This document shows positions 1 through 22,917 of a DNA stretch of 64,000 nt, in pieces; position 1 is the first letter of the stretch, and the number at the start of each line of letters is the position of its first letter. A model generated the notes under the pieces. It worked only from the letters and a program-made list of their open reading frames with translations. It had not been told where the DNA came from and ran no database searches. This stretch comes from Physcia stellaris (Eukaryota; Ascomycota; Lecanoromycetes; Caliciales; Physciaceae), in contig JABSSW010000041.1 in the NCBI GenBank assembly GCA_018902385.1, positions 372,001 through 436,000 on the forward strand, read 5' to 3'. The position numbers were made by a program, and so were the translations under genes.

Positions 1-121
1 TTTAATATTCGTAACAAAAACGTTTTTTCAAATTTTTAATAAACAATGTATTTCATGTTTTTTTTGATTCGTAACGATCAAATTTTTTATCAAATTTGAA
101 AAAATTTTCAATCATAAATTG
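1..121. other. AT-rich hypermutated repeat debris
   Basis: This stretch has almost no CT, AG, CC or GG dinucleotides and matches the debris right of 3387. It is the left part of the host sequence into which the LTR element at 122-3382 inserted. The last five bases (117-121, aattg) recur at 3383-3387 as the target-site duplication. No gene is visible. Confidence 0.7.
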
Positions 122-318
122 TGTTGGAAATACAGTCTCCGCGGGTGTGCTGCAGTCAGGATCCAGTTGGTATAACCTGACGAAAGAAGGACTAGTGCTT
201 CCTTGTTGGGATTAGCGCCTTGGCACCCGCACACTTCTTGTGCTCGCACTCCATGTATGTTACAAGAATAACGAGATTCAAAACAATAGAATGGTAGTCA
301 CCCATGATTCTTTCAATA
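122..318 (+). repeat. 5' LTR of the non-autonomous copia-type element
   Basis: This is a 197-bp terminal repeat beginning TGTTGG. It aligns without gaps to 3186-3382. The exact right end is ambiguous by three bases because ATA after the CA also occurs in the flank; the 5-bp duplication favours ending at 318. Confidence 0.85.
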
Positions 319-578
319 GGTTATGAGAACCGGATTAGCAGCTTTCGCTATACCATCAGGACCAGCTACAGCATGAGCGCACGTAGTACCTAGCCGTCGG
401 GCAGTACAGCAATCGGTTTGCAGTACTCCAGCAGTAACCAACTCCATTGGGAGTATCCAGTCTTGTCAGACCAGAAATCGACCTAGTTGCATTGGCAGCA
501 CTCAGTACTATCCAGTACACCCTCAGTTACATCGGTAACAGTACCTACCTTACGAATTCGCCATCTACCTACCTTACG

Positions 579-1916
579 ATGTCGAAATATCTCGAATCCT
601 ATCACTCAGTCAGAATGACGACTTCTACCTCTCCTACGAAGTCAACAGCCTCTGCGAGTCCCGCATCGTTCACCTCCACCTCTACTTCGGGGCCTGATAT
701 CCTTCCTTGGTCACCTCTTCTATGCACCTGTCTATCCGCGGATGATCCAAGAACCAAGCAAGACCTTCGATCGCTGTATCACGAGCACACGAACTCAAGC
801 CTTACTAGTGTTTCGCGATGCAGTTGGTTCACTCAAGCGAAGAGAGCACAAGAGAGTTACCATTTACGAAAGCATGAGTTGGAGGTCAAGAGCAAACTCA
901 AGCAGGAAGCAAAGGAGTTGGCAAAACAGAAAGAGGAGGCCCGAATAGCTCAGAAGCGAGCAGAGGGATATACGTGCAGGCGTTGCAAGCATTCGGCCAA
1001 ATTCGATAGCAACACCAAGCTCCACGAGCATATCCGTACTCGTCACGCCAAGAAGCCGAAATCGAAGCCTGATTCGCAGCAGTCAATGCCCTCACCTCCT
1101 GCTTCGTCACCTCAATCGATAACCTCCTCACCCCCATCGTCACCGAAACTCTTACCTCTCTCGATGCCCGCACCAGAAATTGTACGCGAGCGTTCAGAGA
1201 GCGTATCACCGAAATCAGTAGCCGAGTCACTAGCTACTCCTTCCGAAACCCCGTCAGACTCCTCGTCGGTTGCAACACCAAGAAAACCGATATCTTGGGC
1301 AGAAATTGCCTCACGACCAGTCGTTGCACCGAAGCCCTCTCGTCTCCCGATTGCGACACCCAAATCGGTGTGTAAACCGTTGGAGAATGCAAGCTTTGCT
1401 TGCCCGCCTACTGCACCGAGGCCCTACCTCACCGTGGACGACCTGTTCCACATGTTCGCTGGGAAGCCGAGCCCATTTGGCCTGCAGCGGCACCAAATGC
1501 GTTCCTTGCCTCCGCGCGGCCCTGGCAAATGCAGTCCCGCAAGCAAATGTGGCCCCATACAAAGCCGCATTACGTCATACTTCCATGCGGCGGCCTCACC
1601 TGCTTCGAAATCGGCCAAATCCGAAGCATCTGGGCCAACACATGCCCGCGGAAGCGTTCCGCGCCAGTTTTCGGTCTCGCGGTGGCCCTCGGCCTCACCT
1701 ACCTCTTTTCCTTCTCGATTTGCTTCGGTGCGCCCCTCTTTCTCGGCATTCTCGCGCCCACCTCCTGTTTGCAGGCATTGCCAAGGGCGTTCTGCCACCT
1801 ATCGGCCTACCGGTTGGGCCATGCCAAATGCCTCCAGAGTTGAGAACAATGGGATACCCAAGGGGATGCGCTATTGGCGTTTCGCTCCTCTCCACCCTAC
1901 TTTGGGGGAGTATTGA
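579..1916 (+). CDS. C2H2-like zinc finger ORF of the non-autonomous LTR element
   Basis: This open frame of about 445 codons starts at the first in-frame ATG (579); the frame is open from 447. The N-terminal third is Ser/Thr-rich. It is followed by a basic, probably helical stretch rich in Lys, Glu and Ala (about 860-965). Then comes a zinc-finger-like motif at about 975-1046: Cys-x2-Cys, Phe, Leu, His-x4-His, with two residues more than usual between the second Cys and the Phe. The rest is Ser/Pro-rich, with a run of Ser-Pro repeats at about 1085-1260, and is probably disordered. It occupies the place of gag in the element and could bind nucleic acid; that is inference. A clearly homologous, decayed version with the same finger lies at about 60936-61313 on the minus strand. 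No known enzymatic domain is present. Confidence 0.6.
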   Translation: MSKYLESYHSVRMTTSTSPTKSTASASPASFTSTSTSGPDILPWSPLLCTCLSADDPRTKQDLRSLYHEHTNSSLTSVSRCSWFTQAKRAQESYHLRKHELEVKSKLKQEAKELAKQKEEARIAQKRAEGYTCRRCKHSAKFDSNTKLHEHIRTRHAKKPKSKPDSQQSMPSPPASSPQSITSSPPSSPKLLPLSMPAPEIVRERSESVSPKSVAESLATPSETPSDSSSVATPRKPISWAEIASRPVVAPKPSRLPIATPKSVCKPLENASFACPPTAPRPYLTVDDLFHMFAGKPSPFGLQRHQMRSLPPRGPGKCSPASKCGPIQSRITSYFHAAASPASKSAKSEASGPTHARGSVPRQFSVSRWPSASPTSFPSRFASVRPSFSAFSRPPPVCRHCQGRSATYRPTGWAMPNASRVENNGIPKGMRYWRFAPLHPTLGEY

Positions 1917-3185
1917 CCTCCTCGGGGTCATTACTTTGGGGGAGTTAGCATGTTGTTTGTTTGTTTTGCCCGCCCACCCCACCCTATTAACCGTTGATCG
2001 GCCATGGCCTGGGGGAGCATAAAAGTTGTTGTTGTTTTAATGGATTTCGATATCCCGCCCCTCCCGCCCAATTTCGGCCTGGGGGAGCTTTAGATTGTTG
2101 TATGCTTTGTTTTATTGTTTAACGAATATGGTAGGGACTTACCTTTGTTGTGGCTTCGTCTTGATCTAACACGACTAATCAATTGCCTCTTTTCCCTACT
2201 ACCCTTGAGGCTTAGTCGCCCGATAAATACGAAGAAAAGAGAAATACAGTGATGACAGTACAGTCTCGAAGGAACGTACGAAGGCACGTACTGACCTACT
2301 GTACAATTGTTAGAATGAAGGAGAAGCACTCTATCAGACAGTATAACTTCGAAAAAATATACTGGCCAAGATGCTCACGTTCAGATAGTACCGCTTCGGG
2401 GGAACGTACTATGCAGTCATTACATCCTCGACCTTGCAAAACAAAAACTCGATCAAGAAGGACAAATAGTGCTGAAGATATCTGACCTTTTCGCATACTA
2501 ATCGACCTGGTTCTCTGACAGGTCTTAGTCAGATCAAGAAAGCTCGATTCTGCACCCTTTGCATCGATGCATGCTCGACGCATTCGATGCATCACCTTCC
2601 TTATCGATTTCTCGACCATCTCCAGCTTCTCGCATCGCATCGGCATACCTTATGGACTTCCTACAGCCAAATTGCATAAATATCGAGCCATTAATGTCGC
2701 AAGAAGTACCTGAAAACCCTGAAATCCACAATGATGCTACCAAATCATGATGTAACCCGCACTCTCGTCAATATCGCACTACTCAGGCAATTGATACTTG
2801 CTCTATGATGTACCTTCCACTCAATTCTAGATACCAGATCCCACATCGATGCAACATTTCATGGAAATGCATATTCAGAACGTCGCAATCCTTCAGATGC
2901 TCGATCGCACGCCTTACAATTCGACCTTACGTCATATCTGAAGCCAATACGAATATCGGACCTCGATTCGTTCGTTTCTGCAATCTCCACATCGATGCAT
3001 GACCTCGGTCAAGACATACCACGTTGAGAAAGCTTGATCGAAAACTCCAGGCAATACATCGCTGAGGAAATCAAAATCTACATCGCTGAGAAAGCTCCAG
3101 AACTCGTCGCGCTGGGGAGCTTGCACGAAAACTCCAAGCTCGATAAAATACAGAGCAGGTGACACCAGCGATTGCTGTGAAAAAG

Positions 3186-3382
3186 TGTTGGAAATACAGC
3201 CTCCGCGAATGTGCTGCAGTCAGAATCCAGTTGATATAACCTGACGAAAGAAGAATTAATGCTTCCTTGTTGGGATTAGCGCCTTGACACCCGCACACTT
3301 CTTGTGCTCGCACTTCATGTATGTTACAAGAATAACGAGATTCAAAGCAATAGAATGATAGTCACCCATGATTCTTTCAATA
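3186..3382 (+). repeat. 3' LTR of the non-autonomous copia-type element
   Basis: This is the partner of 122-318, with 185 of 197 positions identical. It is followed by the target duplication aattg at 3383-3387. Confidence 0.85.
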
Positions 3383-5189
3383 AATTGAATTTTTTTGAAA
3401 TTTTTGTTAATAATTTTCTTCGAAATTCGATTGATTTTCTGTTAATAAAAAAATTCATTTTTTTTTTCAAAATTTTTTTTTTATTATGTATTTGCATCGA
3501 GATTTTTTGATAAATGTTTACGACAAAAAAATTAAAAACGAAAATTTTTTTTTCAAACGATGATTTTGTTGATTATTTTTGATAATTTTCGATTATTTAT
3601 ATTTACGTTTTTTAAAATTTGATTTTCGTCGTATTTTTAATCGAATTTTTCATTTTATGTTCGAATTTTTGTCGATAAACGATTTTTTCGTTTTTATTAT
3701 GTTCAATTTTCATTCATATCGTAAATAAATGATTTATAATAAAAAATTTAAAAAACATTTTTTTGTTTCGTCATTCATTTTTTTTTTCGAATTTATTTTT
3801 GTCGTTAAAATGTTTTTCGAAACAAATTTACGTCGAATTTTTTTATGACAAAAAATTTTGATATAATAATGTAATTTGTCGATATTTTAATTTTTTGATA
3901 ATAATTTACGTAATTAATTTTATCGTTTTTTATTTTTAATAACGTTTTTGTCAATTTTTTTTTGATTTTTTATTTTTCGATTATATATTGTCGTTTTTCA
4001 TTTTGACGTCGACATCATTTTTTTCGATTTTTTTTGATTTTGTTGAATAATTATTTTCGTTCGTTTTACGTTTCAATGTCGTGAAAAAAACATGATTTTT
4101 TTTTAATTTGCGTTTTTTTTTCAAATTTATTTTTATCATTAAATTAGTTTTTTCGTTTTACATTTTTTTTTCAGTTTTTTTTACGATTTGTCGAAAAATT
4201 TTTTCAATTTTTTTTTTTTTTTTCGTATTTCAAATTAATAAACGTTTCGATATTAACATTTTGCGTTAACGCGATGTTCATTTCAATTTCGTATATTTTT
4301 TTTCGATTTTTTTTTTTCGAAATCAAATATTTTCATTTTTTTGTAATTTTTTGCAATCGCGTTTTTAATTCAATATTCGTCAAATTCGTACAAATCGATT
4401 GCGATCATGTGAATTTTTCAATCACGATTTTTTTAAAATTATCGAATAAATCGTTTTTTTTGACATAATTCAAATTTATATCACACGATTAATTTTTGTC
4501 GTGACGATTTTCAATTTGATATATTTCGAAAAACGAATTTTATTTTCGTTTATTATGATTATTATTATAAATTTTTTTCGAATATGTGATTTCGTTTATT
4601 GCGTAAAAATTCGTTCAAAAATGAAATTTAACGTAAAATTCGAATCGACAAACATTTTTTGATATTTCAAATATTAAACAATGATTTGCGAAATCTGATT
4701 ATTGTTTGAATATAAAAATTTTTCATTAAAAAATTCGTTAATGAAATTTGAAATAAAACGAAATTAATGAAACGACGATAAAATTTTTGAAATCGTTTGT
4801 TGAATTTTTTTGCGAAACGTTTCATGCGTTTGTAAAGATTTTTAATTTCATTATATGTCGACGTAATGAATTTGATCGAAACACATTGTTTTTTGTCATT
4901 TTATAAACATGATTGATTTTTTTTATTTGTTTTGCAAATTGTACATTTTTTTTGCTTTTTGTCGTAAAAAATCTTTTTTTTTTCGATTGAAATTTGATTG
5001 TAATTTTATTGCGTTTGTCAATTGTGTTTTTGTTCGCGAAATTATAATTAATAATTGTTTCAATTCAATATTAATGTTGATATTTTTTATTCAATCATTG
5101 AAATCAAACATTTTTTCGTTTGTTTTTACAATTTTTATGAATTGTATTTGCGCTTTATTTTTTGTTGTTCGTTTTTGTTGAATTTTTTA

Positions 5190-6130
5190 TATAAACGAAA
5201 TCAATGAAACAAATGACGCATTCGAATTATTTCGTATCGTTTTCGAATTCGATGATTTATTTTTCATAATTTTATTGTTAAAATCGAATTTTTTCGAATT
5301 TGTAAAAAATTTCGATGTTTGATTTTGTTGAAATCGATTATTGTTAAAATTTTTCGTGCGACGAAACATTTTGATTTTGAATTTTTTAAATTCATTATTT
5401 TTTTCAAAATGAAATTTTAATCAATTTCGTATTCGATCGCATTTTTTTTAACGATCAACATTTTTTTTGTTTTCACAAAATTCGCATTGATTGTTTTGAT
5501 TCAAATACATTTGTTTATCGTTTAAATTTCATTCGTCGATCATTTTTTGTCATTTTGAAATATCATGAATGTTTGTTGAACAACAATCGTGTTCGATTAT
5601 CGAAATTTTTGTCGTACGAAATTTTTTTGAAAATGATGTTTGTTGTGTTGTCGATCGTTTTTTCTTTTCATTTTTTCGAAACAAACGATTTTTATTTTTT
5701 TTAAACGTTTGAAAATGAAAACATTATTTGAAAAAATGTTCGATTTTTTACAATTATAACAAATAAAAAAATTGACATTGTTGAACGACGTTGCAAATAA
5801 TGCAATTGCAAACGTGTAATACAAAAAATATTGTAAATTTTTTTTGAAATTTTTTTTTTGTTGTTTTTATATTTTTGATTTTGATATTTTTGTTGATTAT
5901 TTCGATTTTGATTGTTTTAATTTTGATTTTTTTAATTGTATTTTTGTTTTTTTTGATTGAATGTATCATTACGATAAAAAACAAAAATATTTTCGACATT
6001 TGTTTGTTTTTCAAATTGACGTTTTTTGAATGATGTTGAAACGTTGAAATCGACAAATTGACGAATAAAAATCGAAATGATTTTGTTGTTTTGATTTAAA
6101 ATAATTGTAAACATACGATTTGTTGAATTC
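5190..6130 (-). mobile_element. Gag-like fossil with zinc-knuckle remnant
   Basis: Minus-strand frames across this stretch are basic and Asn/Lys-rich. They include a remnant resembling a retroelement CCHC knuckle (a CYNC motif followed by an Asn/Phe-rich spacer) at about 5700-5765. The element is badly broken and its ends are not visible. Its position between other LTR elements fits an older LTR retrotransposon, but I cannot assign a superfamily. Confidence 0.35.
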
Positions 6131-6764
6131 ATTTTTCGTTATAATTTCGTTATCGAATTTTTTTTGTTTTGATTTTCGATAATATTTTTGATTAATTTGA
6201 ATATAATTTCAAAATCGTACGTCGAATTTTTTTTTTGTGCAATTATTTTTTTTAACGATTTTTTTTGTCATGTCATCGTTCAATTTCGAAATTATTTTGT
6301 ATAACATTTGATTTTGTATTTTTTTGAAAAATATTCGTTGAATTTTTTTCGTTTTTTCAACATATTCATTCAACGATTTTTTTAATTGTTTAAAATTATA
6401 TAATGCATTTAACGTCGATTCGTATTCATTTTTTTTTTTTTAAAAATTTCTTTGCGAAATTTCTTTTAAAAATATTTTAATTTTTTATCAGAATATTTTT
6501 CTGATCATTAATTTATTTGATTGCGTTTTTTTTAATTTTGAATATCACGATGTAACATTGAAAATTTTTTTTGTTTTTCGTATTTAATTGTGATTGAATC
6601 AAATATTGAATTTCGATGAATCGTAATCATGAAAAAAAATTTTTCGAAAAATATTCGTGAAAGTTCGAAATTTGTATAATTTTCGAAAACATTTTTTTGA
6701 TAATCAATTACGACAAACGTTTTTAACGTATTGATATTTTTGAAAATATAATAAAATATCCATT

Positions 6765-7560
6765 AAAATCGCTTAACGCGAATGATCGACCGGGAAGAAT
6801 TCTGGTCAATCCTGCGTCCGTATTCGTTAAAGCCGATAACTCCCACCAATTGAGAATTCAAGTTCTCAATCGGGGCATACGCCAAGACCACCTCAAAACG
6901 CTTCAATAATCTGCAATTACTTCGCATTTTGCACACCAAGCAACAACCACATATGATTTTCATGTATCCAGTCAAAGTTGTAGAACAGAATCAGCGCATT
7001 CCAACGCTGCAAAAATAATAGAAATCGACTCATTATCGCAATAGTTCTGACGCTTCGAAGACTTCGTCGTTGTCAAATCGCCAATTGAGGTGCCTGCGGA
7101 AGTGTTTCCGCTCAATTCTTCGAAGCCTGTACAGTTACTTCGCATCTTGCATCTCAATCAACAACCTCATATGATTTTCGCGTATCTAGCCAAGATTATA
7201 GAACAGAATAAGCGCATTTCAACGCTTCAAGAATTGTACAAATCGGTTCATTATCGCAATAGTTCTGGGGGTTCGAAGATTACGCCGCTGCCAAATTTGT
7301 GCCTGCGAAGGTGTGTTGCGCCCGATTCTCGGCGATGCCTGCAGCGTTTCAATGCGATTTCGATCATAACTCAATGCGCACTCGATGGATATTCGATATT
7401 ATTGATTATTTGAATAGAGCTCATAATGAGCTTCAAAATGAGCCTTCGTTTGTATATTTTACTTACTGGGTGTAAATTTTATTAAGATGCGAAGTCGCTG
7501 ACATCGCAAAGCAATTGCGGGATGTCGATCTTCGCAATCTTATCAGATTCAAACCTAACC
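6765..7560. repeat. Tandem-repeat island that escaped hypermutation
   Basis: This stretch keeps ordinary composition, with many CT, AG, CC and GG, between two fully mutated flanks. It contains about two and a half tandem units of roughly 210-218 bp. The phrase acttcgcat recurs at 6919 and 7137, and gtgcctgcg at 7090 and 7299; the sequence between them is similar. A short open frame on the plus strand (to 7413) has no recognisable product. The units are diverged, so the array is not brand new. Confidence 0.65.
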
Positions 7561-7792
7561 CTGAAGTTCTGCATGGAATTTTTTTGAAAAAATTCACGGG
7601 CAAACTTGTTTTTGAAAATAATAAATTGTTTCGTAAAATGTTGTGAAAATATTTTTACAAAAATCGTTTTACGATAAAAATAAAAATTTTTTCGTTGAAA
7701 TTGTTTAGAAAATGAAATCAATTCGTCGATGAAAATGAAAATTCGATTTTTTGATTTTGAAAATTCAATAAAAATAACGAAATTGTTTATCG

Positions 7793-8016
7793 TATCATGA
7801 ATCGTGTTTGAATAAACGTAATATTAATTATTTAAACGAAAACAATAAATTTGCAAAAACAAATAAATACAAAATATTAAAATTGCAAACAATGTGCGAC
7901 GTCAAGTTTTAAATCACGTTAATTTCAACGTAAAATTAAAACATAATTCGTTGTTCGATCACATATTATATCAATTATCTATTTGTCAGATTTATTTGTC
8001 AAACATGTTCGTAACA
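7793..8016 (-). repeat. 3' LTR of the outer gypsy fossil
   Basis: A 224-bp repeat that matches 20920-21143 with about 14 differences. On the minus strand it starts TGTTACGA. It is flanked on the left by the duplication tatcg. Confidence 0.85.
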
Positions 8017-9931
8017 TTATTTTTTTTTTTCGCGAACGTCGTCTCGACGATTCGTTGTTATTTCGAAATTAAAAAATTTTGTTGAAAATTTTGTCGATTG
8101 ATTTGAATGTTTGCAAAATTCAAAAATTTTACGATTATTATTTTTCATTTTCAGATGTTTCGTTATTGTTTCAAAATTCGATAAAATTTGACAATAATTT
8201 TTGAAAATGTTTTTGACACGATTCAATTTTTCATACGACGTAAATTTTGATTGTAAATAATATCGAAACGATAACGAAAATTAGAAATTGCGAAAACGTT
8301 GCGAAAATAAAATCGAAATAAATATATTGAATTCGAAATTTTCAAATTTTAATCGAATGTAATTTCGATTAATGTCAACATGACGATTTTTTTTCGAAAA
8401 CGACGACGATTCGTTGAAAAATTTGATTCGTTAACAACGTTTTGAAAAATTGAAATTAACGTTTTGAACGATTTTGAATTTACAATCGTAAAATGAATGC
8501 GATGAAAATCGTTCATCATGTCGCGAATATTATCAAATTTTGAATTGTCGACATAATATCATGTTCGATTATACGATCAATTCGATCAATTAACACGATA
8601 TTGAAAACGATTGTAATGATATCGAAATTTCAAAATATCGTTCATTTTTCATTCGAAATTTTCGTTGATTATGACAAAATCAAAAAATTCATTGATTTGA
8701 TTTTCGAATAAATCACGAAAATTTTTGCGCAAAAATCAACAATGAAACACATCGTAAATATGCATGATTTTAAACAATTCGAATCGATATAAATTGTTCA
8801 TACGTTATAATATTTTGTAAAAATTTAATTTTTTGTCATCGAATTTGTTAAACGATTTGATCGTTTTGATATTTCGTCGATCGAAAAAAACGAAATTTTT
8901 TTCGACGTATTTTACGATTTTTCGATGTTTGTTGATTTGAATTGTTATACGTTTTTGAATCATTTTTGCATGATTTCGTACGTAATTGAAAATACTTTGC
9001 ATTGTGTCGATAATATTTTTTGTTTTGATAATCAAAAATCGTTTTTTCGTTGTAACATACGAAATAAAATTTAATAAAAAATTTATACGAAAATGAAAAT
9101 CTTTATTGATGAAAAATGAAAATAATTTTGTTATTGCAAATATTGCGTTGTTGTTTGCAAATTCGATTATGAACAATTAAACGTTTCAATCGTTTTGCAT
9201 GTAATTGCAATATTGTCGTCATTGTTTTTCGATATTTTGATTGATTTTTTCGATTTGTTCATCGATTTTTGAATGAAAAACAATGAAAAATTTACATTTG
9301 ATGTCGAGAATTCGACAAAATATTTGTCAAACGAACGATATGAATTGAAAATCTCGATCAAACGTTATCGAAAAAAATAATTCATGTGTACGAAATACGT
9401 AATTGATGAATATTTTGATCGTAATTTCAACATTGATATTTTCGTCGTCGACGATACAAAACACGTAATAACGTTTTTTGTTAAATTTGTCAATTATCGT
9501 GCATATGATATTATGATCGTGAACGTCAAACAATTCGATAATAAAATTCATTGATATGTCGATTCAACGTTGCAAAAATATAATCAAATAAATAAATAAA
9601 TCGTTTTTGCGATTTTTGAAAATTTTCGTGCGTTAATATTCATAACAATTACGCACGTATCGACAAATCGTTTTACGCATGTTAAATCAATAATAATCGC
9701 GACGTATAAAATTTTTCATGCGATTAAAATCTGAATGTTTCGAAACAGAAAATTCATGAATTTTTTTGAAAAAATCAACAAGTAAAAAAACATCGACGAA
9801 CATTTAAAATCGATTTTTTCGATACAAAACGTCGTTTTTTTCAATGCAATTTCGTAAATCAATTTCATTCATTGAAATGAAATTTTGTTCGATAATTTCA
9901 CGATAAATCGTGCAATCATCGTCAATTTTGT

Positions 9932-10251
9932 TGTAAGAAATAAGAATTCAGAATCTTCGAAAATGCGATTCGCATTTCGTCAAGCAATTCGATTATCGAA
10001 ATTCGAATGACTTCGAAGAAAATCAATCTCAATCATTTTACAACTCGATCAACGATAAACTCAACAAACTCATATTGTCAGTCGAAGTCGCCCGAATTCG
10101 TACGATTGAATAAATAAAATGTGAATAAAAAGCAATTGCAAAACGTAGTCTGTTCTGTAACGATTAATGAATCAATATATTACATTTCAAGCTATACATC
10201 TCTGATGTCAATAATTCATTAGACTATACTATTTCTAATACGAATCTTACA
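9932..10251 (+). repeat. 5' LTR of the nested chromovirus
   Basis: A 320-bp repeat paired with 16252-16571. The left flank carries the duplication tttgt. Confidence 0.88.
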
Positions 10252-13200
10252 TTCTAATCGCTATCATACTTCAGAATGATGTCACTCGTGTATACTTAAC
10301 AGAATACAATTTTGTTGTCTCGCATACATCATGTCGAACTCTGATAATGATTTGCTTTTTGAATTTGTCGAGAATGCTGACGTATCTCTTTGATTGATCT
10401 ATTACAAACAACAAGTCGAAAAAAATCATAAAAAAGAAATCAAACTGCAAGCTCGAAATATTGAACGTTCGAAATCTGTAATTTCTACTTCATTTGTCTC
10501 TATTTCATTTACTTCTGTTTCTGATTCTGTTTGAAAGTTTTTCGTCATGAAGATTATCGAGACGACATCGAATCAATATGAAAAAAAGAACTACAAGAAG
10601 TGAAAAAGATATTGCAAACAAATGAAAAATCAATTCACGCAAAACAACGTGAATCACATAATTCAATTTTCGAATTTAGTCAAGATCGCATACGCTGATA
10701 TTTATCTTAAATCAAATAGCAATGCGAACAAATTTTGAAACGCAAAAATCGATTCTCATTCAAACAAACAATACATCTGAAACGAATTCAAAATTTTTTT
10801 GAAAAGCGACATCGAACGAGCAATCACGTTGCAACAAAATCTCTTGAAAAAATATCGCAAGCACAAACAAAATCACAATCAATCGATTAAAAATTACAAT
10901 GTCGAACGAATAAATATGTTTGCTGAATTGAAATTCGAGTTCAAGCTCACGAAAGCGATGAAATTCAATGATTTTCGTGACGAATTACGTCTGAAACTTC
11001 GCTGCATGCTTCTTAAAAAAAAAAAAATTTTCACAAAGACGAAATTGTTTGAACGACTCAAGCGTATGAAAAACGCTCAAATTCTGAAAAAAGAACTCAA
11101 AAACTTCAAAAAACGTAAAATTTCGTTCGATATTGACAGCTCTGAAAACGAGAACGAAAAGTTCAAAATTGCGAAATTCAAAAATAAGAAAATCAAAAAT
11201 ATTAAAATCAATTCGAATCACGAATCAATCAAGTCGAAAAATATTCGAATGTATCGTTGATTCGTCAACGAATTCAAAAAAATTCAAGACAAAAATAACT
11301 GTATAAATTGTGACAAATCAAATCATCAAATCGAAATCTATACAAACAAAAAAAACAAAATCATTTCCGCTGATCAAATTCTTGAGCAATCAAAAAACTA
11401 ATCGACTTGATGATTTTCGCTCAAGTCGTTAAAAAGAAGAAATTTTCGAACTTCGATTTCGATACGTCGTTTTTCTCAAACATGAGCAAAAATCATGCTA
11501 ACAAGAAAAAAAAACGACGCAAAAAATTTAAAAAACTTTGATTCGTAAATGCGTCAAAGTCAAAATTAACATACAAAACGAAAACAAAATTTGAAACGAA
11601 TCGAAAGCAATACTCGATACAGAGACGAAAATTAATTGATAAGTCATGTCTATGCGAAAAAGTTGAATTTTCGTCGTTCTGAAATTCTAAACTGTGATAC
11701 AATAACAATTGACAATCATCGTTTGAAAACGTATGACGTTTATTTCGTACAATTCGAAATGTCAAACGTCAAAAGAACTAATCGCTTCTTCGAAAAATCG
11801 TTTCTGATCGTGAATTTGAACTGAAATTTAACGTTAAACATGTTCTGAATACAATTTTCGAAAATCAAAGTGAATTGAAACGACGACAATATCAAAACTT
11901 GACGTTGCAAAAAGAAACATCTCATTCTCATCACATGTCGTATCGAGAACATCGAATCAAAACAACTGATCATAAACGTCATCGATAACGAAGTCGAGAC
12001 GTATTTCATGTTCGTACGAATGTATACTGACAAGCAATTCGACATGCATGAAATGCATGTTTCAAAACGAATTCAAATAAAATTTGTTTTGTTTGAAATG
12101 AAAAAAAAACTCGATGTCAAAATCACTCTTCTCGATATCTTGAAAACGTATGAAAAATTCGATAGCGAAAATAAAATCTACGAATTATCGAATCATGATT
12201 CAAACGATCATGCTATTGATTTGAAAAAAAACAAAAAATCGTCGCATGAATCAATTTATTTTTATTCGAAAATGAATTTCGAATATTACGTGTTTACATC
12301 GAAAAACATTTAATTAACGATTTCATTCGATTTTCACAATCTTTTGCAAAAACGCTCATTTTGTTCGTCAAAAAAAAAAACGATAATTTACGATTATGCG
12401 TGAACTACAAAAATCTTAATGTTTTCACGATAAAAAATAAATATTCTCTATCGTTAATCGATGAAAATCTAAATAAACTCAACAAAATCGTCAAGTATAT
12501 CAATATTGACTTGACTGCTGTTTATTATCGATTGCGTATCAAGCATGAAAACGAATAAAAAACAATTTTTCGTACTCGATATGATCATTTCGAATATAAC
12601 GTATTTCTCTTCGATTTCACTAACGCTTCGACGACGTTTCAAAGTTTCATCAATAGAATTCTAGCGATTCGTCTCGATATTAACGTCATTGTATATCTGA
12701 ATGATATAGTAATTTACTCGATGAACGTCGAAATTCATGTCGACGATGTCAAATAAATTTTTGATCATTTTAAGAAAAATAAGCTATACATTGTCTTTGA
12801 GAAATGCAAATGATTCGTTGACGAAATAGATTTTCTTGAGTTCGTCGTTTTTTCTCAAGAAATGAAAATGCAAAACAAAAAGATCGAAGCTATTCAACAA
12901 TGATCAATATTTCGCAACATATTCGACATCATGCAATTTCTCGACATCGCTAATTTTTATCGACGATTCATTAAACATTTCAATAAAATTGCTGAATTTC
13001 TGATCGTCATGTTAAAGAAATCACAAAAACTTCGAAAAAATATTCGTAAACGCAAACGAAATCAAAATCGAAATCGCAACAAATCATCGAATATTCACAT
13101 CTTCTTGATCAACGAGACATTGAAAGTTTTCAAACAATTTCGCAAAACATTTATCGAAACATCAATCTTACGTCATTTCGATTTCGAGCGTGTTATTCGA

Positions 13201-16200
13201 GTCGAAATCGACGCATTCGACAAGACTCTAAAAATCATTCTATGTCAACAAAACGACGAGAATCATTGACATTCTGTTGCATACTTCTCGCGCAAATTGA
13301 TTTCGATCGAATGTCATTACGAAATTCATGACAAGAAATTGCTGATTATTGTGACTTCGTTCAAGCAATGAAAACACTATCTCGAGAGCGCAAAAAAGCA
13401 AATTCTTGTTTTTATTGATCATCGCAATTTGAGACAATTTATGATCACAATTAAATTGTCGTCACGTCAAATTCGATGAGTTCAAAAACTGAATCGATAT
13501 AATTTCTTAATCGATTATCGTCTCGATAACAAAAACTTTGTTGACGAACTTTCAAGACGATTTGATCACATGACGATTACTGAGAAAAACGTCGAAAACA
13601 ATCGTCAAATCTTGAAACAATTGCAAAAATCATTGATCGCAAACTCGAAACGTTTCGAAAAGATGCAAATAAATGCGATCAAAATCATGAATGCGATGCA
13701 TGTCATGAAACGATTCATGAGTGCGATGCATAGCATGAAGCGTCGATCGCATTTAAATGATTCAACAATCGAATCAATCAACGTTGTTTCGAAAACATTT
13801 GATTCAAAAAATTCAAAACGAGATCGAATTTCAATCAGCGTTGTTTCGAGAGCATTCGATTCAAAAAATTCAAAAAATTCGAAACACTCGATTGAGCAAA
13901 AATCAAACGTGACATTCATAAAGTGAAAAATTTTTGTGTTAAAATCAACGATTGTATTTGAGTGCGCAATGCATAGAATTCGAATACAGATTGCTTTACG
14001 AGAGAAAACGACATATAACGACAAGTCAACATTTTCATTGTTGAATTTCGTTCGTGATTTGATCGTTAAAAATCAATTCGTTTTTGAAATATGTCGAAAA
14101 TTAATTATTTCGAGAACAGAAACAAACAATTGACAACACAAAAATGAACTTTTGTATTACGACGATATCGTTTACATTTCAAAAAACTTGCGTGAGAACG
14201 TTATTCGTGCACATCACGATAATTCGTTCGTTAATCATTTCGACATCGAACGAACGTTGAAATTGATACGTCGAAAATATTATTGATCGAATCAAAATTT
14301 ATCGAAATTTTTGAAATGCGACAACAAATCAAAAAACATTGTGAAACATGCGTCGTTTGCAAACGAAACAAAATTGCACGACACAAATCATACGACGAGT
14401 TTTTTTTTCTTTCGATTTTTGAATTTAAGTGAGCTGATTTTTTCATGAATTTCGTGACAGAACTTTTTTCAAATAAAACATAAAATGAAGCGATTTACGA
14501 CTCGATTTTAATGATTGTGAATCGTTTAACGAAGATGATTCATTACATATCAATAATTAAAACGATTTTCGCAAAAAATCTGATCGAAATTTTATTTCGC
14601 GAAATCATTCGATTTCACGATTTCTTTTCGTCAATCGTTATCGACAAAGACTTCATTTTCACGTTCAAATACAACGATGCACTGTGTTACGTCTTGAAAA
14701 TCAAACGTAAATTGTCAATCGTTTTTCATTTTCAAATCGATGAACAAATCGAACGAATGAACAACGTCATGAAGCAATTTTTTCGCGTCTTTGTCAACTT
14801 CGAGCAAAATGATTGAGTAAAACTGTTGTTCATGATCGAGTTCGTTTACAACAACAACAAGCATGCATTCACAAATATCTTTTCGTTCGAAATTATGTTT
14901 GAATATTTATTTCGCATGTTCTTCGAGAAAACATGAAACAACAAAACTAAATTCAAATTCGCAAAGAAACACGTTGAACATCTAGCTGAGCTACTTCGAA
15001 TATTGAAAGACAATTTACTCGTGACACAACAACAACAAACGATGTATAAAGACGAACGCACGAAATCAATGTCATACAACGTCGAAAATTACGTGAATTT
15101 GAACGATAAAAACATCAAAACTAAACGAAACAAAAAGTTGAAATAAAAATTCTTTGAGTCATTTCAAATCTTAAAAACTATAAAGAATCAAGCTTATCGT
15201 TTAAATTTACTCAAACGTTGACGCATTCACGACGTCTTTCACGTTTTTCTTTTGAAGAAATTCAATTTTAAAAGAAAAAAAAACGCGCATACGTCACATT
15301 TTTCTGAATTTTTCTATCAAATTGAAAATATTGAACTCGACGAAAACATGAAAATGAAAATCACGAAAAAATTTTATGAAATCGAAATCATCAAAGACAG
15401 CAAAATTTTCAAAACAGATGAAATTTCAAACAAATTCTACAACGAATTCGATTTTTATTATCTCGTGAAATGAAAAAATTATGAAAACGCGATCTGAAAA
15501 TTTGCATCGTTTGTCAAACATCTTCGAAAAACTTTGCGACAATTTCATAACGAGAATTCGAAAAAATCTGATATCAATAAAAAAACAAATCATCGAAAGT
15601 CAAAAAAAAAGTGAGTTGAAATACTTATTGCATGTTAACACATTTTCGTTTTCAAAAACTTTGTGTGTTATTTATTGTTTAAAACTTACGACGCATGAAA
15701 AATGAATTGTGTCAAAAACATTTTCAAAATTGTTGTTCGATTTGATCGAACGATGAATCGTTGAATAAAAGATGTGAAATGAAATAAAAAGAATTTCGAA
15801 AATCTGAATATCAATGCGATCGCGATTAATGAACGTCTATCGCGTTACACATTTTCTCATGATATCGATGCTGATATTCGAAATAAAGAAATGAAAAGAT
15901 GAAAAAATGTTCGAATTCAAAACTTTCTGTCAACAAATCAGTTGTCAATCATCATATCGAAAATTGTGAATGATACGAAATCAAACATTCGATCATGAAA
16001 GCAACAGACAATTGATTCATCAAATTATGTTTTTTTTGAGTCATTCAAAAAGATGTTCTCTCAGATTTTTAACGCAAATTGACTATTGAATTCGAGCAAA
16101 AATATTTTGAAATGCGAAAATCACGATCATAGTGATTTTTCAAGTCAATGCAAAATCAAAGCAAGCAGAACACGTCAAGACAAACAAAATACGTCAGAAT

Positions 16201-16251
16201 TTTTGTTAGCATATTGATTTCAAAAAACTTCGATGTTTAGAGAGAAGCGTA

Positions 16252-16571
16252 TGTAAAAAATAAAAATTCAAAATTTTCGAGAGTGCGATTCGCATTTCGT
16301 CAAGCAATTCGATTATCGAAGTTCGAATGACTTCGAAAAAAATCAGTTTCAATCATTTTACAATTCGATCAACGATAAATTCAACAAACTCATATTGTCA
16401 ATCGAAGTCGTCCGAATTCGTACGATTGAGTAAATAAAATGTGAATAAAAAGCAATTGCAAAACGTAATCTGTTCTGTAGCGATTAATGAATCAATATAC
16501 TACATCTCAAACTATACATCTCTGATGTCAATAATTCATTAGATTATACTATTTCTAGTACGAGTTTTACA
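16252..16571 (+). repeat. 3' LTR of the nested chromovirus
   Basis: A 320-bp repeat paired with 9932-10251. The right flank carries the duplication tttgt at 16572-16576. Confidence 0.88.
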
Positions 16572-19500
16572 TTTGTTGACAACAAAAATTCGTTTATAAA
16601 TAAATTCGTCAATTTTCATCGCGTGAATTTCGAGTCGTTTCGAAATAAACAATATTTATTTTCGATATTGATGTCGTTCGTCAATATCGTTTTTTGATCG
16701 TGAATCAAACATACGAATCAAAATATTTGTTTTAACGTTCTGAATTTCGAATTGAAATTAAATGACAATATTGAATTTCGAAAAAATTTTTGCTCAACGA
16801 ATTTGACGAAAAATTAGTTTTTTTGACGTTATGAAAATTTTCAAATTTTTGTGATCGATGAAAATTTTGATCGATTTTTCAATATTTTCAAATTCAAAAC
16901 GTCAATATTTTAAATAACGAATAATGATCAACAATTTTTTGTTATAAATTTCGTAATTGTATTCGATTGAAATCATGTTGCAATTATAAAAAACAACGAA
17001 ATGCAAAACTTTTTCGTCGTCGTATTGAAATAATATTTTCGCATTAACGTAATCAAAAAAATCAATTTTCAAAATGATTTGTTTGATTCGATCGTAATGT
17101 CGTAATATGAAAATTTCGATCATCGTTTTTTTGAAAAAATTGAAAATCTTTTCGATTTCAGCAATTTATTCGAAATTCACGAATTTTTTGATCATTCGAA
17201 TGAAAATTCGAATTTTTTTCGAAAAATCACGAATGAATCGTTTGTAAAAATTGACGAAATTCACGAAAATTTGCATTTTTTTCAAATTTGTAAAACGTTT
17301 TCAATTGACAATGATTTTTATTTTTTTCGAATTTATGCGAAAATCATTTATCGATAATATAACGTTCAAAAATGTCATTTTTTTTTTGAAAAATTCGCAC
17401 TTTTCAATATTCATTTGTAATTTGATTTTTTTGAGTTTTTTCAACATTTTACGAACGTGAACGATATGTTTTTTTTTGAATTTGTTGTAAATGAAAATAT
17501 CATCTAAATAAATTTGACAAAAATCGTTCAAAAAATTGAACAACAAATCGTTCATGTAATGTTGTCAATTCGCGAATTCGTTAATCAATTCGAAAAATAA
17601 TATTCGATATTTGTACGATTTCATGAATAACGAATGTGATGAATTTTTCATTTTTTCATTCATTCGAAATTTGTTGAAAATCGATATAATATTCAGTTTG
17701 ATCAAATATTTGCAATTTTGCATTTTAATTAAAATTTTTCGATCAAAAAATGAAATATCGATTGCGTTTCGTGATGTGATTAAATCGTCGATAATTCACA
17801 CACAAACGTAATTGATTATTTGATTTGATTGCAAATAAAACGAACGAAACGTATGTTGTTTGATTGAATACGATGAAATTTTTTTGAAAATTATTTTTCA
17901 AATATTTTTTGAATTTTTGAAATTTGAATTCGAACAAAAAATATATTCGATTTCGAAACAATGTATTGTTATCGTTTAAAAATTCGATTTTGTGATCGTA
18001 AATTCGATGCAACGACAATTCAATTGTTTTTTAAAAATCGAATATTTTTGACAAATGTTTGAAATATTTCGATATTTTTTTCATTATACGTTCAAAAATC
18101 GACTTGATTTGTTCATGTTTCAGAATTTTTTTGATCATGACGACAATTTTCAACGATTCAAAATTTGCTCGCAATGTTTTGAATGCGAAATCGATTTGAT
18201 TGATCGTAATGAAAAAACATTGCATTTTTTGTTTTCGATTTTTGAAATCGACGAATAAACAAAAAAAAATCGCATCAATTATCGCGATATTCATCGAATC
18301 GTTTAAATTCAATTTCGAGAATAAAAAAATTTCGAATTGTTGTTTTTTGATTTTTCAACGTTTGTTGCGTTGTTTTTTCAAATTTTTTTTTTGACGAATG
18401 TCGTTTTCGTAATCGTTGTGATATCAATTTTTGAATGATTTGATTCAACGACGAACGACTCGTCATTTTGATCGATTTTCGAATGAATAAAACAATCGAA
18501 ACATTTTGAATCGAATACGTTTGATTCGTTTTGTATATAAAACGTTGAAAAACTAAATTGCGAACGAAATAAAATCGTATATCGAAATTTTATTGCAACA
18601 ATATGTTTCGCGTTATTTGTTTTCGATAAAAAAATATCGCGATGTCAATTAGATACGTTTTATCGACGATTTGAATCAAAAAATTTCAAACGTCGAATTT
18701 GCATTGTTTTGATGAATATATTGTCATGATAAATACATTTGAACGATTTGAAAATCAATTTATCGTAAATCATATTTAAAATAATTTCATGTTTGTTCAT
18801 TCACGATTTTTTTAAAATTATCGAATGATTGTTCAAATCGATAATGAACAAAAAAATTGTTAATTCGAAATGCAAATCAATTGTCAACTTGAAATAAATG
18901 ACATAAATTATTGAAAAAATTTGACGATCGTCGAATTCGATAATGAATTTCGATTTTAATAAAAATACGAAATTTATGTTCAACATGTTGCATATAAATT
19001 GCGCAATTTTTTTATCAATGAAAATATAATCAATTGCATCAATATTTATTAAAATTTCTAATTTATGTTTATTATCGTTGAATGACAACGTAAAATTGAT
19101 GATTAAAAATCGTTTGACAAAAAAATCAAACAATTCGTCATGATGAATAAAATTTTTTTTTAAACATTCATCAATCGCGTTTTTGATGTGAATTATCAAT
19201 TTTTCGAATTAAATTCGTTCGATTCGTTAATCATGTTCATGTAAAACATTTGCATTTTGTGTCAATGACGTTTTTGATGTTTGTAAACGTTCGAACATTT
19301 TTTTTATACGTGATCGATTTTATCGCATATGAAACATTTGTTCGTAACGATCAATTTGTTTGTTATCGAATTACGAATTTTGATTTCAACGCTAAAACAA
19401 AAATAAACGACAAATTTCACAAAAAAAATCGAAATAACAAATTTCGTAAAAAGCATCGAAATCGAAACGACAAAAATTGATTTGAATTGAAACAATTCAA

Positions 19501-20919
19501 AACGTTGTTGACGTGTCGCGATTTTTTTTTTTCGAAAATTCGATTGTCGATTGTATATTTGTTACAAAATGATTCGAATTTCATCGAACGTAATGAATTC
19601 AAGTGAATATACATTCATTGTTTTTTTCAAATTTCAAAAAATTTTGTTCATCAATTTTTCGATTTTGATGATTTCGTTATAATCAATTGAATTGTTAAAA
19701 CGAAAAAAAATGAAATAAAAAAATTGAAAATTTTGAATATTCATGATCAATGTTCGAAATTGATTACGCATATTGCGTTTGAAATCAAAATTTTCGTAAA
19801 TAATATTCAAAAATTTCAACATCATATGTCAAATTTTGAAATAATTCATATCAATATCACGAATCGATTGTATGTGATTATCGACATTATTTTCAATTCA
19901 ATCAATCACAATAATGATTGCGATCATGTTCGTGTCGTAATAATCAACGTTGATCGTCATTTTATCGTGTATTTTTGTTTTTTAAACACGTCAGATAAAT
20001 TTTATTTCATCGATGAATTTAAAAAAATTTGAATGTATTTTGAAACGTCGTTTGTTTTTTTGAAAAAAATTAATTACGTTAATTTTATCGTCGTTTTTTT
20101 TATCGTCGACGTCAAAATTTCGTGCACGATCGCGAATTTTGATCAACAAAACGTCGTGATCTTTTTTCAAAAAAATATAATTTTTTTGTTTGATCAAAAG
20201 TAAATCACGTTGTTTTTCGTATTCGTTTTTCAAAATATTCAATTTTCGACGAATTTTATTTAATTCGATATTCGTATTGATCAATTCGTCACGATCGACG
20301 TTGACAATATTGTACAAATTTTGATATTGAATCAAAACGTTCAAATAATTATTACGATCGATGCGTAATCGATCAAATTTTTTTAAAAAATCGACAATTT
20401 TATGATTGATTCATCATTTCAACTGATCGATAATGACAATATTTAAAAAATGAATGATTTTTTTATTTTTCATTTTTATGAATTCGATCGATGATACAAA
20501 TCGACGACGTTTGAATTGATTAACGAAATTTTCGTCAAAAAATTATCGTTAATTTTATGTAACATGCGATTCACGTTGACGCGTAACGTTTTGAAACGTT
20601 GTTTCATCGAAATAAAAAATTCGAAAAAAATTGTTTCGTGATGATTTCGAATCATAACTGAAAATGAAAAATTGAAAATGATAAAAAAAAAAAAATCAAT
20701 CGAATCAATTTTCGTTTTTTATCGTCGATTGCGTGAGAAATCGATTTGTTATTTCACGATTTTCATCAAATATTTCGTCAAAAAATTTTTTTGATCGTTT
20801 GTTTGATCAACAGAATTTTTTCGTCGTTTGTTTCGTCAAAAAAATTTAATCGATTTGAAATTTTATTTTTGAACGTTCGCGTATCACGACGAGCGATAAA
20901 AATTGAAAATTTATTGTAA

Positions 20920-21143
20920 TATCATGAATCGTGTTTGAATAAACGTAATATTGATTATTTAGACGAAAACAATAAATTTGCAAAAACAAATAAATACAAA
21001 ATGTTGAAATTGCAAACAATGTACAACGTCAAATTTCAAATCACGTTAATTTCAACGTAAAATTAAAACATAATTCGTTGTTCGATTACATATTATATTA
21101 ATTATCTATTTGTCAAATCTATTTGTCAGACATGCTCGTAACA
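20920..21143 (-). repeat. 5' LTR of the outer gypsy fossil
   Basis: A 224-bp repeat paired with 7793-8016. It is followed by the duplication tatcg at 21144-21148. Confidence 0.85.
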
Positions 21144-21148
21144 TATCG

Positions 21149-22240
21149 CAAAAAATTTTGATAAATCAATAAATTCAATTGATAATTCAAATATCGAAAT
21201 GATTACGAATGTTAAAATAATTTCGAAAAATTCGTTTTTCAATGTTTTGTTATTTATCGACATTGTAATTTTTGATTTTTGAACAAATGATTTAATTGAA
21301 TTTCACAAACGAATTTTTTTTGTTTGTTTTTTTTTTTCGAATTTTGTACAAATCAAAAATAAAATTTATGTCAAAATTCGATTTTAACATCAATTTATTT
21401 TCAAAAAAGATTTATGATAAATGTTTTCAATTTATTTCGATGAAATAATTGAAAAATGATAAATTTTAAAAAAAAAAATTATGACAAGATGTTTTTTTTC
21501 AATCGTTGAAAAAATGAATCAACGAAAATGTTCATTTTTCGAAAAATGCGAATTCGATTGATTTCGATTAAAATCGATTATGATAAAATTGTTAAAATTG
21601 ATAACGAAAAATGCGTTTATTTTCGAATAAACAAATCGATAATAAATAAAATGAATTGTTGAATGATTTTGCGATATGATAAAATCGTAATTTTAATAAT
21701 TGATGTAATAATTGTGAATAATGTTTTTGATGATAAATAATCGTTATTGTATTGTAAATTTTGAATTTTGACGTTTGACGATTTTCAAACTTTTTATCGT
21801 AATTTCAATTTCATTCGACGTTTTGTATTTTCGTGACATTCAATTTCGAATCTTGATTGCGAATCAATGATAAAAATTTAAATAATTTTTGACTAAATTA
21901 TCAAATGAAAAATTCAGTTTATTATAAAAACAACAAGAAAATCGATATTACGATAAAATACAATTGAATGATAAAAATGATTAATTTATTATTTACGATC
22001 AGAAATCAAATATGCATTTTGATGATTAATTAGCGATCATATCGATTATAACATTTGCAGATTTTACAACGAGCGAAATAAAAATTGATTGCGTCAGTGA
22101 AACGTTTCAAGACTTAAACACACGTGATTGCGTTAATCTAATCCTGTCACGCTAAAAAAACGCGCTGAATTGTGATACAACTGATGATGATAAAATTCAA
22201 AAATTATTTGATTTTTTGTTGATTTTGATTCGTTCAAAAG
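21149..22240. other. AT-rich debris up to the edge of the gene-bearing island
   Basis: Hypermutated AT-rich DNA continues from the outer gypsy to about 22,060. It then changes over roughly 150 bp to normal composition by about 22,240. No gene or element part is recognisable. Confidence 0.65.
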
Positions 22241-22917
22241 ATTTAGGATTGCGATGGGGTACATGTTAGACTGCGCCTTCGAACATTTCGATGACCGAGT
22301 GTTTCACCCTCGTGCGCGGATGAGGTAATAGAAAGATCTAGTAGGTAGAACAGCAGGTCAGACGTTGTCATAAAAACGTACACATTCAGCTATTCCTAGA
22401 CTGTCCAAGACTGGTCACTAACACCATGCAACTCAGAACTTGACCTAAATCCTAAAGGCCAAAATCCCTAGACTCGACTCTCTCGCCATGTAGATGCAAC
22501 CAATGGGAAGGTCAGCGTTCTCAATAGCCTAGGGGAGAAGTAAGTGATCTGCTTTGCGGCTTATGAGCCGTGTTCACTCACTATCGAGTGTCTTTAGGCA
22601 CAAACAGCTTGCACGACGCCCTCATCAATCATATCAGGAAAGACACATCTTAGGCATGCCGGATGCGTCCCATAGCATTGATAGTGTCTAAAGCACCTGA
22701 TCTCCTCACAGTGTCGACCATTGTGAGAATTAATCACGACAGGTTGATGATATCCGTGTCCTCCCTTCTGGAGAGCCTGGGTGCTGTCCGTGGTTGGGGC
22801 GTTCTTGTCGCCTGTCTGCTGTTTGGTCTGAGAAACTGCAATGGGATCTGATCCATGATATGCTAATGCTGAATTGAATTGCGGCTGTCAGTTGTTTTCT
22901 CTAGATTTAATGAATCG
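22241..22917. other. Gene-poor edge of the normal-composition island
   Basis: Composition is normal and only short frames are present. This lies downstream of the secreted-protein gene and may hold its 3' end: a possible extra intron begins at the GT about six codons before the stop at 22918, which would add a short last exon around 22,790-22,890. I cannot decide this by eye. Confidence 0.4.

Follow-up and report, generated by a model that had tools for sequence, protein, structure and literature searches.

Retroelements in Physcia stellaris carry C-to-T mutations led by CpC and CpT, pointing to a RIP-like process with a shifted 3′-neighbour preference

Retroelements in a 64,000-nucleotide stretch of the Physcia stellaris genome (GCA_018902385.1, contig JABSSW010000041.1, positions 372,001–436,000; hereafter the window) were probably inactivated by repeat-induced point mutation (RIP), or a RIP-like process, with the 3′-neighbour preference CpC > CpT >> CpA > CpG, a reading to which we assign a probability of roughly 0.8. 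The mutations, C:G to T:A transitions, occur on both strands; the 3′ base is decisive, and TGA stands where TGG is expected. They are found in repeat-derived AT-rich blocks and are absent from sampled gene-rich DNA. C-to-T mutation of repeats is known in many fungi; on the best reading, what is new here is a 3′ preference moved to pyrimidines, with CpC first.

Three features of the window frame the description:

3388–22060, no strand: AT-rich block 1, GC 0.265; CpC/GpG eliminated, CpT/ApG depleted, CpA and CpG retained
49401–64000, no strand: AT-rich block 2, starting at about 49401 and continuing past the window end; signature as in block 1
6740–7610 (approximate), no strand: island within block 1; CC/GG 31/23 and CT/AG 43/37, near expectation

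Throughout the AT-rich blocks, whose 1-kb windows mostly have a GC content of 0.21–0.34, CC and GG are almost absent, CT and AG are depleted by about 35–95%, and CA and CG are retained. The first-pass annotation had described positions 8341–8700 as devoid of CT, CC, AG and GG, with 26 CG and about 19 CA; a direct count agrees, giving zero for each of the four dinucleotides, 27 CG and 19 CA. Base-composition shuffles of this segment predict 47.7 ± 4.9 occurrences of the four combined, with a minimum of 30 in 20,000 shuffles. The further claim that the same holds across both blocks stands for CC and GG, which are close to zero everywhere except in the island, where 43 CC and 31 GG would be expected. 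For CT and AG it stands in old stretches such as 3388–6739 (10 CT and 6 AG against 150 and 113 expected) and holds only in part in the younger Gypsy element, where just 36% and 52% are lost (210 CT and 175 AG against 327 and 366 expected). The left block edge and the island edges are sharp, the latter at 100-bp resolution. An Rfam search at gathering thresholds gave no matches in the window.

The repeats on which the analysis draws are these:

9932–16551, plus strand: Gypsy (Ty3)-type LTR retrotransposon, LTRs 9932–10231 and 16252–16551, with domain matches
9932–10231, plus strand: first Gypsy LTR, 40 copies aligned across the genome
16252–16551, plus strand: second Gypsy LTR, the pair of 9932–10231
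7780–8017, plus strand: high-copy older repeat family, second window copy at 20907–21144, 22 copies aligned
20907–21144, plus strand: second window copy of the older family, relative of 7780–8017
52708–58633, minus strand: Copia (Ty1)-type LTR retrotransposon, LTRs 52708–52915 and 58426–58633, with domain matches
116–3382, plus strand: lightly mutated element, an early-stage example, with direct repeats 116–318 and 3180–3382 at its ends
58805–62193, minus strand: heavily mutated inverted relative of 116–3382, end repeats 58805–59005 and 61993–62193

Pieces of the Gypsy element match Integrase_H2C2 over the cut-off and RT_RNaseH_2 slightly below it (E 6.8e-6), while those of the Copia element match RVT_2 over the cut-off (E 2.2e-13) and gag_pre-integrs under it (E 0.0012). 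The Gypsy element retains 4 CC and no GG against 179 and 130 expected, and the Copia element neither, against 112 and 129. The two Gypsy LTRs are 93% identical, and their 21 differences comprise 20 at CpT, 1 at CpC and no transversions; between the direct repeats 116–318 and 3180–3382, 13 of 15 differences lie at CpC or CpT.

The coding frames of the two retrotransposons bear the same imprint:

12757–14508, plus strand: decayed Gypsy frame of 584 codons, chosen as free of TAA and TAG; TGA 10, TGG 0, Gly 0, Pro 0
53475–56525, minus strand: decayed Copia frame of 1017 codons, chosen as free of TAA and TAG; TGA 18, TGG 0, Gly 0, Pro 0

These are the longest TAA/TAG-free frames, compared with maxima of 189 and 180 codons in 50 shuffles per block, and TGA/TAG-free frames reach just 222 and 236 codons in the two blocks. 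TGG is missing from all 20 TAA/TAG-free frames listed. Frames from the blocks had been noted as nearly free of Gly and Pro, and in the five long frames checked, codons for Gly, Pro and Trp are missing altogether. In keeping with a separate prediction, long retrotransposon frames are broken by TGA, expected from TGG, and not by TAA or TAG. At the protein level, the mutation eliminates codons for Gly, Pro and Trp and creates new stops as TGA from TGG; codons for Gln and Arg, from which RIP stops usually arise, stay in place.

Alignments of repeat copies resolve the preference by 3′ neighbour; the fraction of T was tabulated for each CpN column, using either all columns or only those in which C is the majority. 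Among 40 genome-wide copies of the Gypsy LTR, T occupies 483/515 CpC, 1520/2157 CpT, 181/1440 CpA and 2/1360 CpG positions (all columns), with CpA falling to 33/1280 in C-majority columns. The Copia LTR (22 copies, all columns) has no CpC columns left, and T fractions of 380/461 at CpT, 42/682 at CpA and 2/440 at CpG. The older family at 7780–8017 (22 copies) likewise has no remaining CpC column, with 443/506 T at CpT and, in C-majority columns, 54/762 at CpA and 5/440 at CpG. In a light family (40 copies), T occupies 160/940 CpC, 70/1289 CpT, 29/1356 CpA and 2/488 CpG positions in C-majority columns. CpC is mutated ahead of CpT, CpA is a minor target (2–7% where C is the majority), and almost no change is seen at CpG in columns of clear polarity. 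A majority of C-to-T changes falling on CpA or CpG, which would have spoken against a CpY preference, was not found in the aligned copies.

CpG columns with a T majority are the exception to the rule that the 3′ base strongly determines which dinucleotide is hit. With all columns included, CpG reaches 276/786 in the light family (CpC 254/1044, CpT 217/1468, CpA 106/1472; in a first pass over 21 copies, CpC 142/692, CpG 102/467, CpT 64/952, CpA 35/914) and 104/544 in the older family. The excess comes from 8 columns in the former and 5 in the latter, with C in few copies only; we read these 13 columns, whose polarity is unproven, as subfamily differences. Apart from them, the three further families agree with the Gypsy LTR spectrum. 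Transition/transversion cells number 562/63 in the Gypsy LTR (40 copies), 107/6 in the Copia LTR and 117/18 in the older family; at 417/354, transitions do not stand out in the light family.

Comparing the light element 116–3382 with its heavy inverted relative, 290/335 CpC, 243/367 CpT, 47/389 CpA and 39/315 CpG sites have changed; the reverse direction gives 0/2, 35/180, 31/382 and 31/320. The CpA and CpG changes are about symmetric in both directions and are therefore background. Residual differences between older repeat pairs are not led by CpY (52708/58426: 6 CpA, 6 CpT; 7780/20907: 8 CpA, 2 CpG, 6 CpT; tandem pair 53019/53233: 12 CpG, 6 CpA, 14 CpT), which we attribute to exhaustion of CpY sites; they leave room for a slow CpA process alongside.

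The CpY depletion signature is confirmed as real and is not restricted to the window. Fifteen regularly placed 10-kb stretches (150 one-kb windows) were sampled from the genome, and AT-rich DNA (GC < 0.345) occurred in 3 of them, making up 19 one-kb windows with observed/expected ratios of 0.12 for CC, 0.40 for CT, 1.27 for CA and 2.70 for CG. In the 129 windows with GC > 0.42 the same ratios were 0.94, 1.07, 1.11 and 0.88; 2 windows were intermediate. CpY depletion in gene-rich DNA, named beforehand as contrary evidence, was sought in the sampled windows and was absent, composition there being normal. Confinement to repeats is supported by 129 kb of normal gene-rich DNA, taken to be single-copy from its composition, and by the sharp left and island edges.

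Because C before C or T is struck and C before A or G mostly spared, the usual detection indices miss this mutation. TpA/ApT is 0.45 and 0.40 in the two blocks, where Neurospora-type RIP would raise it, and (CpA+TpG)/(ApC+GpT) is 1.36 and 1.42, where it would lower it. As had been anticipated, the indices score the blocks as unaffected: none of the 33 AT-rich 1-kb windows passes under either of two threshold pairs. These values and the spectra, with CpA minor, rule out Neurospora-type RIP. CpG-type mutation as in Basidiomycota (Masc2) is ruled out by the spectra, including 2/1360 at Gypsy LTR CpG, and by CpG standing at 2.7–3.0 of expectation in AT-rich windows.

A genome search for RID- and Dim-2-type methyltransferases, suggested by the first-pass annotation, returned three Dnmt1-type genes, one DIM-2-like (L010) and two RID-like (L009, L011). 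L010 matches PDB 9bap, which we take to be Neurospora DIM-2, with E 2e-181. In the RID/Masc1 catalytic region EQT replaces ENV; L011 carries EQT, and L009 has EET and so falls outside this motif definition. L009 and L011 are 40% identical across 174 aa, and 34% across a stretch of 149 aa nearer the N terminus.

The repeat spectra and the normal gene-rich DNA support the RIP-like process with a CpY preference proposed at the outset; the responsible enzyme we infer. A candidate RID/Masc1-class cytosine-5 methyltransferase would act on recognised duplications and convert or mark C preceding a pyrimidine, using up CpC sites first and CpT next, and CpA and CpG would survive because the enzyme's reading of its target is altered. 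Tentatively, the divergent L009, or else L011 with an altered target loop, might read the 3′ pyrimidine in this CpC-led, CpG-protecting fashion. Protection of CpG amounts to up to three orders of magnitude in the Gypsy LTR and is smaller in other families.

Slow deamination of 5-methylcytosine offers a passive route to the same end without a RIP burst, in repeats methylated at CpY by the DIM-2-like or another methyltransferase under MIP-like silencing. The DIM-2-like gene is present and the gradation of families from light to saturated also fits gradual decay, but the Gypsy LTR transitions (21 to 0 in the pair, 562 to 63 cells over 40 copies) are too one-sided for mutation accruing alongside ordinary substitutions. 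Moreover, the accessible text of PMC4352252 gives CpG as the leading context of known methylation decay in fungi, against 2/1360 at Gypsy LTR CpG; we regard this route as unlikely.

Less probable still is an origin in ultraviolet damage or in an AID/APOBEC-like cytosine deaminase acting on DNA, even though the change is mostly C-to-T with a strong neighbour effect. APOBEC3 and ultraviolet light read the 5′ neighbour (TpC/CpC) and would deplete TpC, which is enriched here to 1.4 of expectation, ruling out 5′-context mutation of either kind; here the 3′ base decides. The 5′ neighbour matters less, the T fraction at CpT being.72 after A,.45 after G and.74 after T. A six-frame APOBEC_N search gave no matches, as did its search controls. 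The strong AT-richness of the blocks might suggest an artefact of composition or assembly (AT drift, odd codon use, chemically deaminated reads), but AT drift cannot bring CpC to zero while keeping CpA and CpG, and shuffles never come near the observed counts. With sharp edges on the left and around the island, and with certain dinucleotides accounting for most differences between copies, we give this explanation practically no credence.

The process favoured here resembles the RID-dependent RIP of Neurospora crassa in its C:G to T:A changes on both strands of repeats and in the accompanying RID-like and DIM-2-like genes. The N. crassa order in the accessible part of PMC5496416 is CpA > CpT > CpG > CpC, whereas CpC leads and CpG comes last here, and TpA is depleted rather than raised. 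Trichoderma reesei is likewise an ascomycete whose RIP has its own preference, given there, with one sign of the order missing, as CpA and CpG about equal, then CpT > CpC, so that CpC is last in that fungus and first here. CpT is a major target, with a RID/Masc1 gene present, also in CpT-signature RIP (Botrytis, Sclerotinia, Magnaporthe; Anisogramma), a group that includes the RIP-positive controls of a 2021 Ascomycota survey, and a RID motif has been proposed to accompany CpT. In the accessible portions of PMC4352252, PMC10998396 and PMC7882544, CpA is co-targeted where reported and no CpC signature is named (the term CpC is absent from the main text of PMC4352252); CpA is minor and CpC leading here. 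Basidiomycota (CpG/TpCpG) and Tuber (CpG) share repeat-associated C-to-T change, with CpG as target according to the accessible text of PMC4352252 and PMC4014442, whereas CpG is the best protected context here. CpC changes are the most frequent per base in a Rhizoctonia AG8 table (one per 214 bp, versus 370 for CpG), which, as far as its accessible text goes, counts differences from one nucleus to another, whether in genes or in repeats. MIP of Ascobolus, by the Masc1-class enzyme, also targets repeats and only methylates them (PMC4352252, accessible text), unlike the mutation seen here. In the accessible open literature, the Clutterbuck 2011 survey excepted, signatures are CpA, CpT or CpG, and no CpC-led repeat signature was found.

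RIP surveys often rely on TpA/CpA indices, which the mutation-saturated blocks described here escape; with 0/33 windows passing, some 'RIP-negative' fungi may be misjudged. If the re-aimed enzyme is real, CpC-led RIP could be widespread yet go uncounted, since it registers as an absence of RIP on the standard indices. The nearly reversed preference and the two RID-like genes form a natural contrast for asking which region of RID determines the dinucleotide that is targeted.

One round of RIP should leave strand asymmetry; overall this is weak, the per-copy z scores of the two strands correlating at 0.56 and 0.66, and it does not enter the argument for RIP made here. Individual copies appear strand-asymmetric, for example L052 and the repeat 3180–3382.

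The absence of CC, CT, AG and GG (0 each) from 8341-8700 and the presence of 19 CA, both reported by the first-pass annotation, were confirmed upon recounting, with CG corrected from 26 to 27; the four absent dinucleotides together are expected 47.7 +/- 4.9 times (minimum 30 in 20,000 shuffles). The proposed extension of this signature to both AT-rich blocks (block 1, 3388-22060; block 2, 49401-64000) holds, with refinements. CC and GG are essentially zero, and CA and CG lie near or above expectation throughout both blocks, but depletion of CT and AG is uneven, with about 5-7% of expectation left in the oldest-looking stretch and 64% (CT) and 48% (AG) in the Gypsy element. An 871-bp island inside block 1 (~6740-7610), with both edges sharp at 100-bp resolution, is little affected, and is perhaps too short or too diverged as a target. 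Within this otherwise saturated block, the island holds a diverged 165-bp tandem pair (6914/7132; 81%, spacing 218). The left edge of block 1 is sharp, whereas at its right edge (22001-22400) the depletion fades over ~300 bp (22.0-22.3 kb), possibly by leakage into flanking DNA.

The signature is real and strong, and it is also found outside the window. The window corresponds to C41:372001-436000 of a 43.97-Mb genome in 147 contigs, which its DIM-2/RID-type genes suggest to be fungal. From this genome we sampled 15 regularly spaced 10-kb stretches on contigs C1-C3 (150 of 43,974 kb), scored as 1-kb windows. Nineteen 1-kb windows with GC <0.345, from 3/15 stretches, carried the signature of the blocks (fraction of expectation: CC 0.12, CT 0.40, CA 1.27, CG 2.70, TC 1.43), and two were intermediate (CC 0.60, CT 0.83). 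Depletion of cytosine before a pyrimidine (CpY) was looked for in normal-GC DNA and was not found in the 129 1-kb windows with GC >0.42 from these contigs (CC 0.94, CT 1.07, CA 1.11, CG 0.88).

The blocks and their flank hold four repeat families:

9932-16551, block 1: Gypsy-type element; stop-to-stop pieces match Integrase_H2C2 (over cut-off) and RT_RNaseH_2 (below cut-off)
52708-58633, block 2: Copia-type element; stop-to-stop pieces match RVT_2 (over cut-off) and gag_pre-integrs (below cut-off)
116-3382: third (light) family, direct repeats at its ends, lightly mutated
58805-62193: third (light) family, inverted, heavily mutated
7780-8017: fourth family

We take Integrase_H2C2 and RT_RNaseH_2 to mark Gypsy, and RVT_2 and gag_pre-integrs to mark Copia elements. 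Inside the lightly mutated element, 438-1916 (+) is a 492-aa open frame with a zinc-finger-like stretch noted by eye; a Pfam search with this frame gave no family above cut-off.

A first genome-wide look gave candidates for every family (Gypsy LTR, 182; Copia LTR, 75; light family, 220; fourth family, 349), part of which were scored. Of the scored copies, 40/40 entered the alignment for the Gypsy LTR, 40/40 for the light family and 22/40 for the Copia LTR; for the fourth family, 22 of the 42 matches listed were aligned. Both strands were counted, and columns were discarded if <60% covered or if >10% of letters were other than C/T. Since the best-scoring copies were aligned, those dissimilar to the query are under-represented, and since columns with T in every copy are invisible, CpC and CpT are understated.

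T fractions by dinucleotide over aligned copies, all columns
Family; CpC; CpT; CpA; CpG
Gypsy LTR; 483/515; 1520/2157; 181/1440; 2/1360
Copia LTR; none left; 380/461; 42/682; 2/440
Fourth family; none left; 443/506; 54/762; 104/544
Light family; 254/1044; 217/1468; 106/1472; 276/786

Tabulated by the next base, changes in the Gypsy LTR are concentrated at CpC and CpT as opposed to CpA and CpG, in agreement with the preference first proposed. Its T-majority columns comprise 13/13 of CpC, 39/54 of CpT, four of CpA and none of CpG; without those four, CpA falls to 33/1280. Expressed as -ln(1-p), the values are 2.78 for CpC, 1.22 for CpT, 0.026 for CpA (C-majority) and 0.0015 for CpG. The CpG totals of the fourth and light families stem from 5 and 8 T-majority columns, respectively, with C in few copies; C-majority columns give 5/440 and 2/488. 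The light family C-majority columns otherwise show 160/940 for CpC, 70/1289 for CpT and 29/1356 for CpA. The 5' base is weaker in effect (CpT T fraction.72 after A,.45 after G,.74 after T).

Eight repeat pairs inside the window differ by 136 transitions (75 CpT, 17 CpC, 26 CpA, 18 CpG) and 31 other changes. CpY accounts for 21/21 differences of the Gypsy LTR pair, 13/13 transitions of pair 116/3180 (plus 2 other changes) and 13/15 for pair 58805/61993. Pairs 52708/58426, 7780/20907, 53019/53233 and, in the island, 6914/7132 are less CpY-dominated, or not at all; together with the T-majority CpG columns, they are the chief misfit with a pure CpY account. We read their non-CpY differences as background change after CpY sites were exhausted. 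The tandem 214-bp pair 53019/53233 (53019-53446) has 12 CpG changes, the highest of the eight.

The annotation had suggested a process akin to repeat-induced point mutation (RIP) with an unusual target preference, and the general RIP features that could be tested are all present. The CpA preference of Neurospora-type RIP is absent, which rules out that identity; the process works like RIP, with an unusual target order. In open-licence papers, the RIP order is given as CpA>CpT>CpG>CpC in N. crassa, and CpA~CpG, then CpT>CpC in T. reesei (PMC5496416). CpA, CpT and CpG signatures are linked to Dnmt1 classes in ten fungi with one or two RID copies, where a RID motif is suggested to accompany CpT (PMC4352252); the term CpC is absent from that main text. 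CpT to TpT dominates in RIP-positive controls (PMC7882544), and CpA occurs together with CpT in Anisogramma (PMC10998396). CpC is a lesser sign in other fungi: in Stagonospora, where CpA dominates, CpC and GpG are depleted (PMC2621366); in Monilinia, double changes of CpC to TpT accompany classical CpA (PMC8959702); and in Rhizoctonia AG8, whose nuclear variants are described as CpG-biased, CpC is the commonest class per base (PMC4014442). Further cases are CpA-led (PMC4522978, PMC7493409, PMC5555474), and classical indices are used in PMC5602860. A CpC-led repeat signature was not found in the consulted passages of these open-licence papers.

The genome also encodes one DIM-2-like and two RID-like cytosine methyltransferases, the type that had been proposed as a search target. 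A six-frame, exon-by-exon search for C5 cytosine methylases, which further genes could escape, gave 4 matches at three genes, all in normal-composition DNA. L010 (contig C3) is nearest to PDB 9bap (E 2e-181), presumably Neurospora DIM-2. L011/L012 (C5) has an EQT motif, and L011 is open across one GT-AG intron. L009 (C6) has EET; over 174 residues it matches L011 at 40% identity, and the two also have an N-terminal region in common. The L009 match contains two TGA; it is open with a first intron and a second in several possible placements, 3/13 of which retain the conserved FACLQ stretch, so the gene is probably intact. By sequence, L009, L010 and L011 are candidate enzymes for the mutations.

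C-to-T changes before a pyrimidine would convert TGG to TGA and destroy GGN and CCN, and could not create TAA/TAG from CAA/CAG. We took the ten longest TAA/TAG-free stretches per block, with TAA/TAG absence as the selection, and length and content as the test. The longest span 584 and 1017 codons (blocks 1 and 2) versus <=189 and <=180 in 50 base-composition shuffles; TGA/TAG-free stretches reach only 222 and 236 codons. TGG is absent from 20/20 stretches, and those of 1017, 584, 420, 392 and 350 codons hold 18, 10, 7, 7 and 5 TGA. The expected near-absence of Gly and Pro was borne out, with none of either in 5/5 stretches checked (of 20), each of which retains 13-32 CAA/CAG. By comparison, the 977-codon gene frame taken as control (39773-42703) contains Gly 67 times, Pro 39 times and Trp 11 times. 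This open frame (39770-42703, 977 aa), in normal-composition DNA, is NRPS-like, with AMP-binding, carrier and thioesterase domains. At 44461-48777 (-), neighbouring frames with a P-loop-like GGPGTGKS and maybe TPR-like repeats possibly represent, by eye, a NACHT-type gene.
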